Source of the DNA: a virus
Virus record (IMG/VR): IMGVR_UViG_3300033146_003828
Span: 1 to 21,322 of that record
Length of the DNA: 21,322 nt
Reading direction: 5' to 3' (one strand)
How positions within the stretch are numbered: position 1 is the first letter of the stretch; every line of letters starts with the position of its first letter. This document shows positions 600 through 14,893 of this stretch, one piece after another. The position numbers and the translations under genes are program-made. Below the pieces are notes generated by a model, which saw nothing but the letters and a program-made list of their open reading frames with translations, was not told where the DNA came from and did not search any database.

Positions 600-881
600 T
601 TAATTAGTAAGAATAGTTTTTATTTCAGCAAAAGTTGTTTTTGCAGAAGCAATTAATTCTTGGTCTGGATTATCAGAAGTTATTGTATCTAATACAGAAG
701 CCATAAGATTAAGTTGGTCAGATAATGTAGCTATATTTTCAATAGCTACTTTTTTTTCGTAAGACCTACTTTTATCTGTTTCTTTTTTTCAAAGTTTATT
801 ATCTTCATCAATATAATATATATATCAATTTTCAATATCTATTAATTGTTGTTTAGTTAATGTTTCTAAATTTAATTTCAT
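600..881 (-). CDS. Small acidic hypothetical protein (93 aa)
   Basis: This 93-residue frame opens with M-K-L-N-L-E-T-L-T-K-Q-Q-L and contains two UGA codons read as Gly (N-G-Y and L-G-K-K). The N-terminal part resembles a short helical 'LTKQQLIDIE' segment; the remainder looks alpha-helical and mildly acidic, and I see no membrane segment or catalytic motif. It follows the adhesin stop codon by only 10 nt, so it is probably on the same transcript. The leader contains TTAATTA seven bases before the ATG, as in many genes here. A tail-fibre chaperone or a lysis-region accessory protein is possible from position alone. I do not recognise the family. Confidence 0.75.
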
Positions 882-891
882 ATTTTTTTAA

Positions 892-3084
892 TTAAAATAT
901 ATTTTTTATTAGCTTATTTGCAGAATTTCAAGTTCCTCAAACTCATCAAGTTGTCCCAGTTTGACCAGCTTGTCAATATGTAGAGCCTCATCAAACTCAT
1001 CAAGTTCATCAAGCTCATCAAGTTACTGTAATTGTTCAACTAAATATTTTGTTTTCAGAATATAAACAAACTACTCAACCTCAACCTCCAGTCCCTCAAC
1101 CACCTCAACCTCAACCTCAACCATCTGGAGCAGTTGCTCCTCATTTATTTCAATTTCATCAATTTCATCAATTTCATCAAATACTTGTTATTGTTCAATT
1201 TCAACCAAAATATTTTGCATATATTAATAAACTTCAACCAGATAATCAAAGGGCTCAACCTCCTCAACCTCAACCTCAACTTAATCTATCAGTTCATAAT
1301 ACAGCATTATTTCAGTAAGCATTTGCTCAAGGTCAAGAAGCTCACGACCCTCAAGGTGCATTTCCTCAACTTCAACCTGCACTTAATCCTCAAGGATTTC
1401 AATGTCAATCACTTGTTTTTGCAGCTCACCCGAGTCCTCAAGGAGTTCATCAAGTTCATCAAGTTCATCAAGAATAAGAACTGTCAGCTCAACCACCTCA
1501 ACCACCTCAACCATATCAACTTCATTCAGCTCATCAACTTGCTCAACTACCTCATTCTTCTCAATTACCTCAATTACCTCAAGCTCATCATAATCAAGCA
1601 CTTCAAGGACTAAGAGTTTCAAACATTGTAATTAAGTCTGAATTATCTCATTTTCAATCAATATCTATTATTCAATCTATATTACACCCATTTATACATT
1701 TTATTTTTAACTCTCAAGAACCAGTCATTGTTAATGTTCAACCAGTTTGAATATCAATAGAATTATAATTATATTCTTGTCAAGCAGTTAATGTGACAGT
1801 TTCTGTGTCTAAAATAACTAAATCTCAATCACTTCAATCTCAACCAAATATATTTAATTCTTTAATATTTATATTGATTTCAGTTTCACTAATCGCTTTA
1901 AAATCTCATCACAATTCTATAATTCAAGTAGAAATATTATATCAATATTTACTTTCTGGAACTAATCAAGTTTGGTTATTATCATATCAAGTATTAAATT
2001 TTCAAGTTTCTCAAATATTTTTATTTACTTGTAATATTCAAATAAAATTATTTCAACCTAATACAGCCATTTTGTATCAAGGGAATTTGAAGTATAAATC
2101 GTTAGTATCTGTACTCCAAGCTGAACCATTGTATAATGAAATATTACCGAATAAAGCATCAGTTCCAGCAGACCCGAATGTGTAATAATTTACATCTGAA
2201 TTTCCTCCAGTTCTTTTTAAAACAAAATGGTATAATTCTCATACAGTAAGAGCTACTATTCAACCAGAAAAAGTGAAATTTTCTTCTTCATAAGCTCCTG
2301 CAATATTTGTATAATCTATTGTATCAGAAGTTCAATTTGTAACTACTGTTCAACTTGGTACTCAAGCATTATCAGTTTGAATTTCTAAATATATTCAGTC
2401 ATCTGGACTTCATACTGTTTTTACCATTAATGGTATTACATTTCAAGTATAAGCTAATTGTCAATAGAAACTTTGTGCTATTTGAGGCTGTGTAGTAGTT
2501 CATAAATCAACACCAGTAGAATAATCAAGTTGTTCATAATCTGCTTTACTATATGCTAATCAAGCAGTTCAATTTACAGACATCATTAATTCTAAAGATG
2601 CAGAAGAAACAACAGCATTTATTCAAGATAATTCTGATCAATCTCATTTAATTTTTGTTACAGTTAATTCTCAATCAATAGTTTGATTTCAAATTTTTGT
2701 TATTACATCAGTAGTATTAGCTTTTAATACTAATTCAGTTTTAATATCTTTATCATTTTCAGCATAAATAGCATTTGTTATACTATCTCAACTTGAAAAA
2801 GTTAATCAATTATTTGTAGAAGTTTTTGGTTCAGCTGTATCATCTTGAACACAAGCCTTAAAATGTCTAACAACTGTGAATAAATCTCAAACTCTATTTG
2901 TAACTTTTACGATTTCTCTTTTAATTACATAAACTCAAGAATATTTTTCAAGAGTAAGTAAAAAAGGGAATTCAGTTGGGAATAAAGCTCATTCATTCTC
3001 CGTACAACTTAATGAAGTTGCACTTGCAGAAATATCTCCGAATAATATCGAGTTTCAATTCTCAACGGTTTTATAATTTTCCAT
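892..3084 (-). CDS. Glycine-rich tail adhesin / receptor-binding protein (730 aa)
   Basis: This is a single 730-residue frame only when UGA is Gly; it holds more than 100 in-frame UGA codons. Residues about 1-490 are beta-rich and Thr/Asn-rich, ordinary for a tail-tip or fibre protein. Residues about 495-720 are extremely glycine-rich, with runs such as GGNGGNGG and GGTGGTGG interrupted by short hydrophobic strands (S-L-L-I-Y-A-K and V-V-C-L-Y-S) followed by G-T-I-T. That alternation is typical of glycine-rich phage adhesins, and polyglycine-II helix bundles are known in the S16-type gp38 adhesin. It is preceded by its own copy of the repeated promoter motif (3111-3139) and follows the Tal-like gene, the expected place for receptor binding. 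Several antisense or shifted frames across the repeats are artefacts. Confidence 0.85.
926..1607 (-). repeat. UGA-rich polyglycine repeat region within the adhesin gene
   Basis: On the coding strand this holds tandem 9-mers TGATGAACT (1445-1471) and TGATGAAAT (1153-1180), a related four-copy block (988-1023), and TGAGGT hexamer runs (around 1078-1121, 1257-1279 and 1492-1512). In the gene's frame they encode Gly-Gly-Thr, Gly-Gly-Asn and Gly-Gly. All units are multiples of three, so slippage would change length without shifting the frame. Confidence 0.85.
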
Positions 3085-3139: not shown

Positions 3140-4147
3140 TTATCATTTCAAATAATTAAACTCACTTGCAAAATTTTCAGTTTTTTCTAAATACAAAGTT
3201 ATTCAATCCATATAATATTTAGTTTTTACTATTTGCAAGTTATCAATCAATGTTCAATAAATACTTATTGTATCTCAAGGTTTTATAGTTTCGATATCAT
3301 AAATATCATTAATTTCAATAATAGTTTCAAGTATAAAATCTTTATTATTAATAATATATTGATTTCAAAATTCATCAGCACTATCATTTTGTTTAATACT
3401 TTCATCTACAATATATTTTTCTCTAATTCAATAAGTCGTTTGACTTGTTAGATCTTCATAAATCCTTATACTATTATCATATTTTAGTATTAATTTATTA
3501 CATAATTTTTCTGTATTTTGTTTAGCTTCAACTTTATAAACTTCTTCTCATAATTCAAATACATGTATTGGAGTAGCTTCTTTTTGTTTAAAATAAACTT
3601 CTCAATTAGCACATATTCTATAATCAAAAGTACTTGCTTGTTTTACTTTATTTACAATACTAAGAGCTGTTTCATGTTCTAGATCTAATTTAATATCAGA
3701 ACCACTAGTATCAATATTTTTTGTAAATAAATTATAATCTAAATTAATTAGATCAACCATATCACTCATAATATTTCAAGGTGAATCTGTTTTACTTCAA
3801 TTAAAAGTTTTATAATTAAATATACTTCATAATCATAATAAAGGAATAACAATTTCTTCATAAGAAGCAGTTATATTTCTAATTATATTTTGTACTATTC
3901 AAGTATAAATATTCCTTCAATCTGGATTTTGTTTATCTATTTGATAAATTCTGATAATATCAGTAGCAATAATATCAAAAGTTTTTACAGGTTTATTCCG
4001 TACTAATTTTAGTTCTCATTGTCCACTATTTAAAATACTATCAAAAACAAGTCTATTCTTTATTTCAGTTGGATTTATAGTAAATTTTAAATCTCAATTT
4101 ATTGAATAAACTTTTCATTCGAATTTTTTATTTTTTACAGTATACAT
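3140..4147 (-). CDS. Tail-tip protein, Tal / siphovirus Gp37-like (335 aa)
   Basis: This 335-residue protein follows the Dit-like gene and precedes the adhesin, the standard slot of the tail-associated (Tal, hub) protein. The visible pattern is a beta-rich N-terminus (L-V-F-D-S-I-L-N-S-G-Q-G), then I-Y-T-G-I-V-Q-N, a helix with a D-Y-R-I-C-A-N-G-E-V-Y-F strand turn around residues 180-190, and a C-terminal P-G-D-T-I-S-I-Y segment. These features resemble the ReqiPepy6 Gp37-like family, whose members line the tail hub. No peptidase or lysozyme domain is present, so it is the short, structural version. Start and upstream stop overlap by one base (TAATG at 4149-4145), implying translational coupling with the Dit-like gene. 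Family call moderate, coding call firm. Confidence 0.75.
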
Positions 4148-4950
4148 TATTTATAATTACGTTGGTAAAGTATATTCACATCTACATCATAATCTCCATC
4201 AGAAGTAAAGTTTACAATATTACTTCAATTATCTAATTCCGGAAAAGTTCAAGTGTAATCTACTAGAACTCAATTTATTTTAGCTGTTTTCTCTTTACAA
4301 TTAATAATAACACTATCAGAATCAACCAGATCATGAGTTATTTCAATGTATAATCAGTTTATATCTACTCTAATAAAAGATACTCCTGAAGCTGTTTTAT
4401 AACTATATGTAATAATTGGATCTACTTCTACATTTCATTCATTTGTAATTTCTTCTTGAGTATCTTCGATCATATCTAAAAATGAATGCGACGTATATTT
4501 ATCTGAATACCAAAATGGTTCAAGAGCTTCGAATGTAACTTTAAATTCTAAATAAGTAATATTATAATATTCTATATTTAAAGGAAGTGAAACAGTCGAA
4601 ACTAATATATCTCTGTACTCTCAATTAATCTTTTCTTGGAGTAATACATTATTTTTTGCTAATTTTCATCTAACTTCATCAAGAAAAGCATTAAATTCTC
4701 AAGCCGTTTCAGCTTTTACTAACATATCAAGTTCAATAGTTCTTCATCTATAATAATTTGAGATATATCATTTACCATTATTAATAGGAAAATCGAAAGA
4801 TTTTAATGCAGTTCTAAATTTATCTCTTTTATTTATTATATATAAATTAGTTCCATTTATTCAATATCAATCCAATACAAAAGTATCTCAAATTGCACTT
4901 AATGGAGCAATTCAAGTATTATAAGCATTTGAATTATAAGTATTTGTCAT
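4147..4950 (-). CDS. Distal tail protein, Dit-like (267 aa)
   Basis: The N-terminal half shows the pattern of siphophage distal-tail proteins: a short strand region, then F-D-F-P-I-N-N-G-K-G-Y-I-S-N-Y-Y-R-G-R-T-I-E with the R-T-I-E-L-D strand, and an A-E-T-A-G-E-F-N-A-F-L-D-E-V-R helix followed by L-E-P-F-W-Y. Dit forms the hexameric ring joining the tail tube to the tip. It lies 11 nt downstream of the tape-measure gene and is coupled by TAATG to the Tal-like gene. Several glycines in the conserved part are UGA-coded (G-K-G-Y, Y-R-G-R), while W-Y uses UGG, which argues against UGA being Trp. Confidence 0.8.
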
Positions 4951-4961
4951 TTTTTTTATAG

Positions 4962-6587
4962 TTAAGCAATACCAAAATTAGAAGCAAGAGAAATATCTCT
5001 AGCTAAACTCTCTTTTATTCTATCAGCTAATCTCATTTCATCAGCTTCATTACTTAAATGATTTCCAGTAACATTGATATTAATAGTTTGAGAGGATCCT
5101 CACATTTTATTATTTGGAGTAATATTTCAAGCTCAAGGTGCAGTGAATAATTCTGGTCATCTTTCTCATACTAAATAAGTTCTTCAACTTGCAACAGTTC
5201 AACCCGTAGCTTTTGCTCAAGATACAAAATTTGTGACAGAAGTAACAGCAGATCAAGCTAATGATTTAGCTTTTGAAGCTAATGCTTTTGCTTTATTATA
5301 TAATCAAGTTATTTTTTCAAATATACCTGTAACAAAATCAGCTAATGCTTGAAATTTTGATTTAACTGTAATAACTATATCATTAACTATTCAGAATAAT
5401 GCAGATTTAATTGCTTCCCATATTCAAATTAAAGTATCTTTAAACCAAGTAGCTTTTTCAATAATACTATCAGTCATTAATCACCATAAATATTTAATTG
5501 TAAGTGTGATATTGTCCCAGTCTTCATAAAATTTATATATAACTACTCCTAATGCAACTATAGCAGCAATTAATAATATAATAGGATTAGCTGCTAAAAA
5601 TGCAAAAGCAGTAGATAATGCTCAAACAGCAGTAGTTAAAAATCAAATTGTAGTAATAATTGCTGGTAATATCATTCATAAAGTACCTATTATAGCAACG
5701 AAAGCAACAGTTCATATTGTAACCATTGCAAGAGTTTTAGTAAGTTCTGGATTTTCTTTAATAAAAGTACCTATTTGAGTTAATATAGGTCATAATACAT
5801 CAAAAGCTAATTGTTTCATTGGAGCTAGTAATAATCAGAAACTAGCAGTTGTATCTTCTGTTGTTGCTGTTAATATTTTTTGTCTATTAGCAAGGCTATT
5901 TATTGTATTATTAAAATCTCAATGAGTTACATTCGTATCAAACATCATTTTATCTAATCTAAGTAATGTTTTTTCTTGTTGACTCATTTTAGTTACAGTT
6001 CACTCAATTCATTGTCATAATAAATAGGATTGTAAAGATGCATCAGTAACATCACTTGCAAATTTTCTCATTGCTTCAGTTTCTCATCTCAATCATTGAT
6101 TTAATGCACTCATAGCAATACCTACATCTACATTAAATACAGAAGCCATATCTTTAGCTCTTTCAGCTAATGTAACAGTTTCATTAGCAGTTTCTTGTGC
6201 AGTTAATCAAGTAGCTCAAAGTAATGCTCCCATCTCAGTAGACATTTGATTAAATGCTCTATTTGATATTCACGCAGATTTTGCAGCACTTTCTCAATAT
6301 TTTAATATTGTTTTAGCTCCATCTCAAAATATTACTTCAACAGCATTAATACTTTCTCATAAATCAGTAGAAATATCTATTGCTTTATTAAATCAGTATC
6401 ATAAAGCAGTAGTTGCAACAGTTCAATAACCAGCCATCTTTTTGAAAGCAGGTTGCATGTTATTTAAAGTTTTATTAAATCCAGTAGTTTGTTTTTCCAA
6501 ACCCTTTATTTGTTTTTGAACTCAAGCTATAATTTTTGTTGCTTGGTCTTTTGCATTTATAATGATTTCTAAATTTCTATCAGCCAT
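4962..6587 (-). CDS. Tail tape measure protein (541 aa)
   Basis: This protein sets tail length. The N-terminus (about residues 1-45) is a helical A-D-R-N-L-E-I-I-I-N-A-K-D-Q-A-T segment typical of tape measures, followed by M-A-G-Y-G-T-V-A-T-T-A-L-G. A hydrophobic block at about residues 280-355 contains two or more membrane-type helices. Near residue 475 it has V-A-S-G-R, then Y-L-V-G-E-R-G-P-E-L-F, the near-universal C-terminal tape-measure motif; both Gly of V-G-E-R-G-P are UGA codons. About 35 UGA and 14 GGN codons encode Gly. At 541 residues it predicts a short tail (very roughly 80 nm by the usual 1.5 Å per residue rule). It has its own upstream copy of the repeated promoter motif at 6617-6645. 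Confidence 0.93.
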
Positions 6588-7366: not shown

Positions 7367-8341
7367 TTAATATTGAGTATTATTATTATTTTGAACTGAA
7401 GCAGAAATTGTTTTACCATCAGTTGCAGAAAATTCAGCATCAAATCACATTGTTTGCATAACTAATCCATTTGCATCTGTAGATTTACCCCAATCACTAA
7501 ATGAAATTCTTGCAAATTCAAAGTTTAATTGAGAATATTCAGAAGCTCCAATTAATGCAGAAGAAGTAACTTCAATCGACATTGCTTTTTTAGTATTATT
7601 TAATACATAATCTCTCATTGTAACATCTTCAAAGATTGCTTCTAAATCTCAACTAACATTAAATTGTTGGTTATGTAAACTTCTTACATCAGTATTACCG
7701 ATACATTGAAAATCAACTACATTTTTAGCAATATTAAATTTAATATTTTTAAGGCATACAGCAGAAGCAGCACCTAATCCAGCAATATCATCAGCAAATT
7801 TAATAGTTGCATTAGCAGCTAAAAATTCAGCTTGATCTGTATAAGCAGGAGTTCTATCACTTCAAGGAGTAGTAAGAGCTTTACCTTTAAGAGTAGTATT
7901 AAATTTAACATAATCACCAGAATTAACTTCAATCTCTAATGAATCAAAAGCACAGTAAGTAGCTTCTTCATCTCCAACTGGATTATCATAGTATGAAGTA
8001 TAAGTAACTGGAGTGTTATCGTTTTTTCTAGTAAATTCGTGTAAGTAAACATCAATTTCAGTTTCAGTAGGAGCAACAGAAGTTCAAAGAATACCCATTA
8101 ATATATCTCAAATAAAGTCATCTCTTACAATTCAACCGATAATAATTTCTGACATATTCTTAACAACTTTTGAATCGTAAGTTTCATCAATTACACCATA
8201 AGCACCGGTATCTTTTATTGATTCAATAACTGGTTTTACTTCACCAGTTTCAAAAGGAATCCAGGTAGTTGGAGCAACAGCAGTTCAACTTGTTGTTTCT
8301 TTACCAATACCTATTGCACCTAGTCTTCATATAAATCCCAT
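7367..8341 (-). CDS. Major tail tube protein (324 aa)
   Basis: This gene lies just upstream of the tail chaperones, the usual place of the major tail protein. The N-terminus shows G-K-E-T-T-S-G-T-A-V-A-P-T-T-W-I-P, a recurrent start in tail tube subunits ('..E.T.(Y)GTAVAPT..IP'), and the body is rich in beta strands and Thr/Ala. UGA encodes about 8 of about 27 glycines, an intermediate level between the capsid protein (2 of 32) and the tape measure (about 35 of 49). It has its own promoter-motif copy at 8369-8397 and its own terminator-like hairpin downstream, consistent with strong separate expression. The 324 residues suit a tube protein with an additional domain. Confidence 0.85.
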
Positions 8342-10846: not shown

Positions 10847-11884
10847 TTATAGAGTAATATTTCTTAACATAACAACAGAATTTGCTCTGATTGTTTGTGC
10901 ATATCTAAAATGTGCAGATATTGCGAATTGATCAACTCTTGGTAAGTATTCAACGAAAGTTTTTAAATCTCTTTTAAAACCTCTAATAACATCTTCTTTG
11001 TAAACAATTAATGCTTGACCTTTAGTATTATTAGCAGGAGTAGATGAGATTTTACCATCAGCTTCTGTTCTACCTATAAATCAAGTTGGAGCAATTTCCA
11101 TACCATCAATAGAAGCAAGAGTTCAGTTAACTACAGTAGCAGCTCCACCGAATTTTTCAACAGTTTCAGCTTGAGTAAATGCAAGAAGTTTAAAGTAAAC
11201 ATCTGTACCAACACCAAGTAATAATTCATTTGGATTAAGACCTTTACCATTTGGTAACATTGCTCTACCTTCTCTTATATCAGCTAAATCCATTGCACCA
11301 GCATCAACAGTTAAACCATCAGTAATAGCTCTTTTTCTTAAACCATCAGTTGCTAAGTAGTAAGAACCAGCAGCAGGAGCTCCATCATCAGAGTTAACAT
11401 TACCAGTAGCAGCAATAACAGTATCACCATTAATTAATACTTTATCAAGTACTTCATTATATTGTTTAGCGATTTTGTTTTCAACATAACCTCTCATATT
11501 AACAATACCATCTTCATCTAATTCACCTGATAAATAAGCTACAGCAGTAAACTTTTTAGCAGATAATAAGATTTCAGAAGTTCCAGCTTTTGAATTATTA
11601 TATTCAGTAGCAGGTACATCACCATTTTCAGTAGTATAATTAAATACAGGATCAGCTCCTTCAACTGGTAATTTATAATCAGCAGTAGGCATTGTAATTG
11701 GAGCAGGAAATTTAGATGAAAAGTTTGTTGCTTCTCTAACTAAACTTAAGATATTAGTAGAAAAACCAGTTTCTACAAATTCTTCACCAGCACCAGTATT
11801 ACCTGTATTCATAGCTTCATCAGCTTTAGTTTCTAGAAGTCCTAGTGATTTTTTCACAGCTTCTAATTTTTTTAATAAGTCCAT
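10847..11884 (-). CDS. Major capsid protein, HK97 fold (345 aa)
   Basis: The gene follows the prohead protease, as in HK97-type head modules. Sequence features of the HK97 fold include an N-terminal arm, V-R-E-A-T-N-F-S-S-K-F-P-A-P-I (residues about 49-63), K-F-T-A-V-A-Y-L-S-G-E-L (E-loop/P-domain region), L-I-N-G-D-T, G-L-R-K-R, M-L-P-N-G-K-G and a C-terminal G-F-K-R-D-L-K-T-F-V-E. Only two codons are UGA (11125-11123 and 11083-11081), both near the C-terminus, against about 30 GGN glycines. A standard-code reading would wrongly end the protein at 11123 with 253 residues. The scaffold function appears to lie in the upstream protease fusion. Upstream in-frame stop confirms the ATG at 11884. 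Confidence 0.92.
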
Positions 11885-13366: not shown

Positions 13367-14893
13367 TTAATTAAGTATATAATCTATTTCTTCTTCTAAA
13401 TAATCTTTATATTTCTTTTTATTATTAATAAAATAACTATTAAGATTATCTATTTGTCATAAATCTATATCTAATCATAATTTATCTTCTACTATTCAAG
13501 ATAAAACAGTTTCATCAATTGAATCTAATTCAGATAATAATCATTGATATAATTCTAATTTAGTTGGAGTAGCTTCTCTTAAAGCAAATCATTCAAAGAA
13601 ACTTTCTCTAATTTTTCATATTTGTTCATGTATTTCAGATCATTTAACTCTAAAAATCATATCATTATCTATAGCTATAATATTTTTAGATTTATCCATC
13701 ATTATATTTCATATATGTCTATCTGTTTGACCAGTGATCATATCAATAGCTCATAATCTAATTCTTTGACTTCTATATTTTAAAAATTCTTTATCATTCA
13801 TTTTTTTAATGAATATTCATGATATTGACTCTCAATCAATAAATTCGTTTAATATTCATCTTGTTTTTCATTTTATTAAATGAGTTTTAGGAGAATATAC
13901 ACCTAATTCATTATTAATAATACTAGATAATTTTTCTTTATTTACTAACGATTCATCTATAAAAGTTTTTCAAAACATCTTACCTTTATCAGTTTCAGTA
14001 AAAAATGTATCATTTAATGAATCAACATTATTTTTTGATATATCTCATATTTCAAATGTTTCAATATCTTTATCCCATGTATTTAATTTCTTAAATTTTT
14101 GTTTTCAATCATTATTTTCTAATTCAATTTCTTGATCAATTATTCCTTCATCTATAGTATCATCTATATCATAAATAGTTGCACATCTACATCTAAATCA
14201 ATCTGGAGATATATTTGTTTGAGTTCAAGAGAATGGAACATTTATATCAATCCATCAATCAGCTCAATTTTTAACATGAGAATTTCTAACTTTCTCATCT
14301 CAAGCAGTAATCCACTTTTTTTTAACTTGTTCTCATTTATCTTTTAATTCCTTCATAGGAAGATAATTGCCATATTCATAAGCTCTTCATACTTCTTGAA
14401 TTGCTATTAATTCAGCTCTTGATTTACTAAATATCATTGGATCAGTTTTTCTAAGATCTTTTGCGATCTCTCAATAACTAGATCATTCATTAATTCAATC
14501 TGCAATAATATCTATCATTCATAATTTAGTAGTTCTACTAATACTTCATTGATTTTGACTTAAATGTAAATCAGTTAAATTATTTATATATATAGTAGCT
14601 TCATCATTCTTTAATCACCAATTAATACTAAAATCTTCAGTCTTAGTCTTAAAATTTTGTTTAGATTGATTATATCACACTCAGAGCACTTGTTTAGATT
14701 TTTTTGATATAAGCATAGGCAATGTAGATAAAGAATTATCAGTAAAGTTACTTAAATCATCTTTAAATCATTTTTGATCATATAATAAAAGAAAATTAAT
14801 AAATCTCTTCTTTTGTTTTTGTAAATCTCTATAAAAAATAAAAGCTGAAACTCTTTCTTGATCTCTCTTATATTTTCTATTTGTTATTTTCAT
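13367..14893 (-). CDS. MuF head protein with C-terminal kinase-like domain (508 aa)
   Basis: Residues about 110-240 form a phage Mu F / SPP1 gp7-type minor head domain: R-A-E-L-I-A-I-Q-E-V-G-R-A at 159-171, W-I-T-A-G-D-E-K-V-R-N-S-H at 194-206, and D-G-F-R-C-R-C-A at 231-238. The C-terminal part (about 295-470) looks like a kinase catalytic core: an N-lobe with K-G-K-M-F-G-K-T-F and N-N-E-L-G-V-Y-S-P-K-T, a hinge-like N-E-F-I-D-G-E-S, and a catalytic loop G-Q-T-D-R-H-I-G-N at 388-396 followed by I-I-A-I-D-N-D at 405-411. D-R-H-x-x-N plus I-D-N resembles PI3/4-kinase and HipA-type kinases. MuF proteins ride in the head and in other phages carry toxin or enzyme tails, so this domain may be delivered to the host at ejection. 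Overlaps the portal gene by 17 nt. Confidence 0.85.

Follow-up and report, generated by a model that had tools for sequence, protein, structure and literature searches.

The gene at positions 892 to 3084 (minus strand) very likely encodes a tail-tip receptor-binding or fiber protein of a siphovirus-like phage with genetic code 25, ending in a tip that is plausibly polyglycine-II-like and using UGA as its normal Gly codon. The window, that is, the whole stretch of DNA analyzed, is a 21,322-base IMG/VR record and probably represents a fragment of a virus genome. The original prediction of a tail adhesin with a Gly-rich tip is supported by the genomic slot, the synteny, the homologues and the domain make-up of this modular, 730-aa protein. 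As a phage protein it is of an ordinary kind, and it comes from a group of phages that is little known: receptor-binding proteins of the phages of Gracilibacteria-type episymbionts are hardly known, and one family, its slot and its modular exchange can now be given.

Translated with table 25, the gene forms one uninterrupted frame of 730 codons, terminated by TAA and containing exactly 114 in-frame TGA codons, while the remaining five frames of the region hold between 15 and 53 TAA or TAG codons. In 300 trials with a first-order Markov model of the 892-3084 DNA, the longest TAA/TAG-free run averaged 101 codons and never exceeded 184; hence, the observed open run is beyond chance. With code 11, the longest stop-free stretch of the sense frame is 53 codons. 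The expectation that this single gene would contain over 100 UGA codons and be untranslatable under the standard code was therefore correct. That standard pipelines would miss the protein is true for code 11, as the only ORFs listed within the gene (1049-1318, 1134-1613 and 1793-2185) lie on the plus strand and are antisense. It is not true for code 4, which by the definition of the table keeps the frame open and misreads Gly as Trp. Over the entire window, code 11 yields nine ORFs of at least 80 aa and code 25 a normal phage gene array, in which almost all genes are open only with TGA as a sense codon.

UGA is read as Gly throughout the genome of this phage, beyond a single gene. In the terminase alignment with four relatives, Gly is the commonest residue at the TGA columns of the window and Trp occurs in none of them; code 4 (UGA as Trp) was rejected for this reason. 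One relative with fewer UGA codons (L002) has 23 terminase Gly columns written GGN, and the window has TGA at 13 of these 23 and GGN at none, which supports the assignment independently. CGA and CGG together account for one codon in all window genes. Proteomic evidence for UGA as Gly in a BD1-5 bacterium (PMC4032931) is in agreement with the window.

The gene order of the tail module, all on the minus strand, is tape measure protein (4962-6587), distal tail protein Dit (4147-4950; SPP1_Dit, phrog_33), a Tal-like gene (3140-4147), named by its position alone and without family match, and the gene at 892-3084. In siphoviruses, the slot directly behind the tape measure, Dit and Tal genes is that of the receptor-binding protein. 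Family matches in the window cover the terminase, portal, MuF-type head protein, major capsid protein, Dit and tape measure; the 892-3084 protein itself has no match among the Pfam, PHROG and NCBIfam models. The MuF-type head protein (13367-14893, minus strand; PF04233 at residues 130-240) additionally carries a C-terminal PI3/PI4-kinase-like segment (PF00454, residues 372-421), possibly a MuF-linked effector domain. Downstream of the 892-3084 gene lies a small gene of 93 aa (600-881, minus strand), which has the same position as the gene of ~140 aa that follows each homologue (phrog_1604-like in L071 and L072). Its product may be the counterpart of a phage-encoded tail-fiber chaperone.

When 288 genomes from the class of a Candidatus Gracilibacteria MAG were searched, relatives of residues 1-480 turned up in seven. 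Homologues over the full length number three; they have 736-738 aa and are 42-46% identical to the window protein. The one in L037, a prophage-like region in a genome of the order containing a named Candidatus Gracilibacteria MAG, has 736 aa, is related over nearly its full length including the Gly-rich tail, and shows the gene order of the window. The others were found in IMG/VR with a hand-made DNA pattern around DF(K/R)AISETEI: L071 shares 94% identity with L037, and L072 shares 46% with the window protein. Together with the window protein, the family now has four full-length members that fall into three sequence types. For all three homologues, a Tal-like gene of 342 aa comes before and a gene of ~140 aa after, with an M15-type peptidase farther along (family match made for the L037 copy). 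The order tape measure, Dit, Tal-like recurs in L037 and L042, and the same Tal-like gene precedes the L071 and L072 copies.

Other searches were less productive. Pattern searches for related loci with the adhesin or its alignments returned nothing, probably because GGN glycines were assumed or because the patterns lay in variable parts. The full-length profile had no match at E <= 1e-10 in 380 genomes across the phylum, and, apart from MW202566, where the middle domain of the L037 homologue has a weak match, tblastn found no relative in phage GenBank records. A terminase search of genome contigs likewise revealed no relative.

The protein is composed of exchangeable parts. The N-terminal region (residues 1-165; 2590-3084, minus strand) presumably serves for virion attachment, and part of residues ~30-110 is common to the tail proteins L040:10083-12005 and L043:4224-5360 (BLASTP as single comparisons, 7e-13 and 2e-7, respectively). 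At its end, the L043 protein has a Phage Tail Collar domain (E = 5.8e-24). The middle domain (residues 166-412; 1849-2589, minus strand) is predominantly beta and might be jelly-roll-like; it also occurs in L037, L071, L072 and, joined to a different repeat tip, L038, and in tandem copies in tail fibers of L042, L027 and L028. These last three, from code-25 prophage-like regions, are large tail proteins with several copies each (L042:10210-13674 in the first), and the L042 fiber is encoded behind a tape measure, Dit and Tal-like gene. The N-terminus of L037, L071 and L072 differs from the window type and also begins the L042-type tandem-domain fibers and the L050 fiber, which has a phrog tail-fiber match. 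As other code-25 prophages keep the N-terminal or the middle domain and change the tip, the protein is best read as a modular tail fiber: the slot swaps heads and tips the way tail fibers do. This swapping, together with the position behind the tape measure, Dit and Tal-like genes, points to a receptor-binding or fiber protein.

Another type of virion protein, such as a decoration protein or a neck fiber, or a surface protein of lysogenic conversion, is an improbable identity for this gene product. Heads and necks are also decorated by beta-rich adhesive domains, and the middle domain has a weaker match in L041, to a giant ORF of surface-like type from a standard-code genome, but all full-length homologues are located directly behind the Tal-like gene, and the fiber swapped into the same slot bears a Collar domain.

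The distal part of the receptor-binding protein starts with a beta-solenoid-like base (residues 413-490; 1615-1848, minus strand) with strands at 421-476 and a block mean pLDDT of mostly 80-89. The Gly-rich tip follows (residues ~491-730; 895-1614, minus strand), in which 105 of the 240 residues (44%) are Gly, arranged in runs of 5-10 Gly and (GGX)n repeats; it is a candidate polyglycine-II bundle with variable loops. The Gly-rich C-terminal domain described originally is thus clearly present, and its period of three is reflected in the lag-3 autocorrelation of Gly (z = 5.9 in the window, 4.7 in L037). Polyglycine II has a pitch of three residues per turn. Between homologues, 75-76% of the Gly positions in the tip are conserved vs. 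23-24% for the non-Gly residues. At the DNA level, 9-base tandem repeats of the TGA-TGA-NNN type are visible in this coding region (987-1022, 1150-1180, 1444-1472 and 1488-1582), which could expand or contract by slippage.

An AlphaFold2 model built from three sequences (the window protein and the IMG/VR homologues L071 and L072) reached a pLDDT of 54.9 and a pTM of 0.52, compared with a pLDDT of 32.6 for a single-sequence structure of the full protein. The strands at 421-476 are confident and strand pairs appear at ~618-635 and ~671-688; confidence is low across much of the rest, and below a pLDDT of 50 over a large part of the Gly stretch. Foldseek with this model gave no PDB match at E <= 0.001. 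The best structural matches are beta-solenoids (antigen 43, ice-binding proteins) with Z of 7-8, a value usual for models without a clear match. The springtail PPII-bundle antifreeze protein 7jjv follows with Z = 4.1 over 73 residues, a match that Gly composition alone could yield, and two viral proteins were found in BFVD (E of 2e-4 to 3e-4). S16 gp38 (6F45) is absent from the fold matches, which is not counted as evidence for another fold. PDB sequence and profile matches of the Gly-rich part were only Gly linkers (scFv constructs and similar) and were discarded as a composition artefact.

These models make a second architecture worth considering, in which the protein still belongs to the tail tip and its Gly region forms, in place of a polyglycine-II bundle, a beta-solenoid carrying long, flexible loops of Gly or an extensible linker. 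The confident parts of the model are indeed solenoid strands, the top structural matches are beta-solenoids, and the Gly stretches are predicted with low confidence. Even so, this arrangement is rather unlikely: the GGX period of three, found in the window and in L037, is needed for polyglycine-II packing and not for a floppy linker, and the same packing would explain why Gly positions are strongly kept and the intervening residues are not. Moreover, in cyanophage Pam3, gp24 (39% Gly) adopts a fold of stacked, extended strands of Gly (PMC9608196). A polyglycine-II tip, as first proposed, is therefore plausible; the period, the Gly conservation and the weak 7jjv match speak for it, and the low pLDDT of the model and the missing gp38 match do not.

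The further suggestion of a host-range lock, in which a concentration of UGA in the adhesin ties receptor binding to the recoded host, is almost certainly wrong. The 114 UGA codons do prevent translation of the gene under the standard code, but so do those of nearly all sizeable window genes, terminase and portal included. The UGA share of Gly codons is 114/163 (0.70) in this gene vs. 239/357 (0.67) in the other window genes (Fisher test, p = 0.54), and the window terminase writes 28 of its 29 Gly (97%) as UGA. In the full-length homologues, the share is 0.72-0.83. At the Gly columns common to the window protein and L072, UGA is present in both at 62, in the window alone at 21, in L072 alone at 23 and in neither at 11; UGA and GGN are thus interchangeable at homologous sites, their choice being near independence. 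Neither the window baseline nor these columns point to selection favoring UGA in the adhesin. The 114 codons result from a Gly-rich protein in a genome whose usual Gly codon is UGA. Code dependence is a property of the entire phage, and any lock would be genome-wide; entire code-25 phages have already been described (Liu et al. 2023, PMC10746230; PMC13059738). This removes the tempting idea that recoding of one adhesin locks the host range.

Codon usage differs in genes expected to be highly expressed. In the major capsid gene of the window (10847-11884, minus strand), only 2 of 32 Gly are encoded by UGA (p about 6e-15 against the window genes excluding capsid and phrog_290 tail gene). Among nine code-25 phages (window, L002, L003, L004, L005, L007, L010, L011 and L037), covering several capsid families, the UGA share is 0.03-0.55 in the capsid gene and 0.18-0.85 in the other genes, and in every one of them the capsid gene has a lower share than the genome (paired Wilcoxon, p = 0.004). 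UGA is likewise scarce in the phrog_290 tail gene (8/27 in the window, 7367-8341, minus strand; 1/27 in L010). ATA, too, is scarcer in the capsid genes, as would be expected if highly expressed genes are under general codon selection. On the host side (L051-L070), nine genomes had both an L2 ribosomal and a background region. One of them, G049 (the source of L041, from the same class), is standard-coded by reading, with UGA absent as sense, and was excluded. With a single background region per genome and cluster limits set by simple rules, the ribosomal cluster around L2 has a lower UGA share than the background in seven of the eight remaining genomes (for example, 0.13 vs. 0.55 and 0.28 vs. 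0.73) and an equal one in the eighth.

This suggests that UGA is a disfavored Gly codon for high expression. The avoidance in capsid genes and ribosomal clusters opposes the codon-optimization idea, in which UGA was suggested as the optimal Gly codon (PMC10746230). It is conceivable, though somewhat short of an even chance, that UGA is slow or limiting and that its density shapes expression, with capsid and major tail genes kept low and the low-copy adhesin left at the mutational baseline. UGA density would then indicate how strongly a gene is expressed, at odds with the published suggestion. No earlier statement of UGA avoidance in highly expressed genes was found in the portion of the open-access literature covered. 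Through the capsid avoidance, it becomes possible to test whether UGA serves well or poorly as a Gly codon in these lineages.

The host of the phage would be a code-25 bacterium of the Gracilibacteria/Absconditabacteria group. The exchangeable N-terminal region would dock to the tail tip, and the middle beta domain could act as a shaft or an accessory binding module. At the C-terminus, the beta-solenoid base would bear stacked Gly-rich strands, probably polyglycine-II-like, with their variable turns making the receptor contact. The phages described for this host group (PMC10746230; RSA-ATP1, PMC13059738) are also dense with in-frame UGA and have portal and terminase genes readable in code 25 only; a Gly-rich receptor-binding protein is not discussed in the passages covered.

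The closest functional analogues are probably Pam3 gp24 and the T-even gp38 of S16 and PP01 (PMC12892980, PDB 6F45). In gp38, Gly-rich motifs alternate with variable segments and a beta-helical element lies beside the Gly domain, much as predicted here. However, gp38 is a separate small protein capping the trimeric gp37-type fiber, whereas in the window the Gly tip forms the C-terminal end of a longer protein (730 aa) within a siphovirus-like Dit/Tal tail module, and PDB sequence, profile and fold searches gave no sequence or structural match between the two. Pam3 gp24 is the best described analogue (PMC9608196). It lacks a sequence match to the window protein in the searches run, its Gly-rich part is about half as long, and in place of its TNF-like domain the window protein has a middle domain classed as predominantly beta. 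Nevertheless, both proteins appear to combine an N-terminal docking part, a beta domain and a distal tip rich in Gly (39% in gp24, 44% in the window protein) that contains long runs of Gly; in both, Gly is conserved and the tips vary. Pam3 also encodes a chaperone, gp25 (PMC9608196), and the small gene at 600-881 possibly has a similar role.
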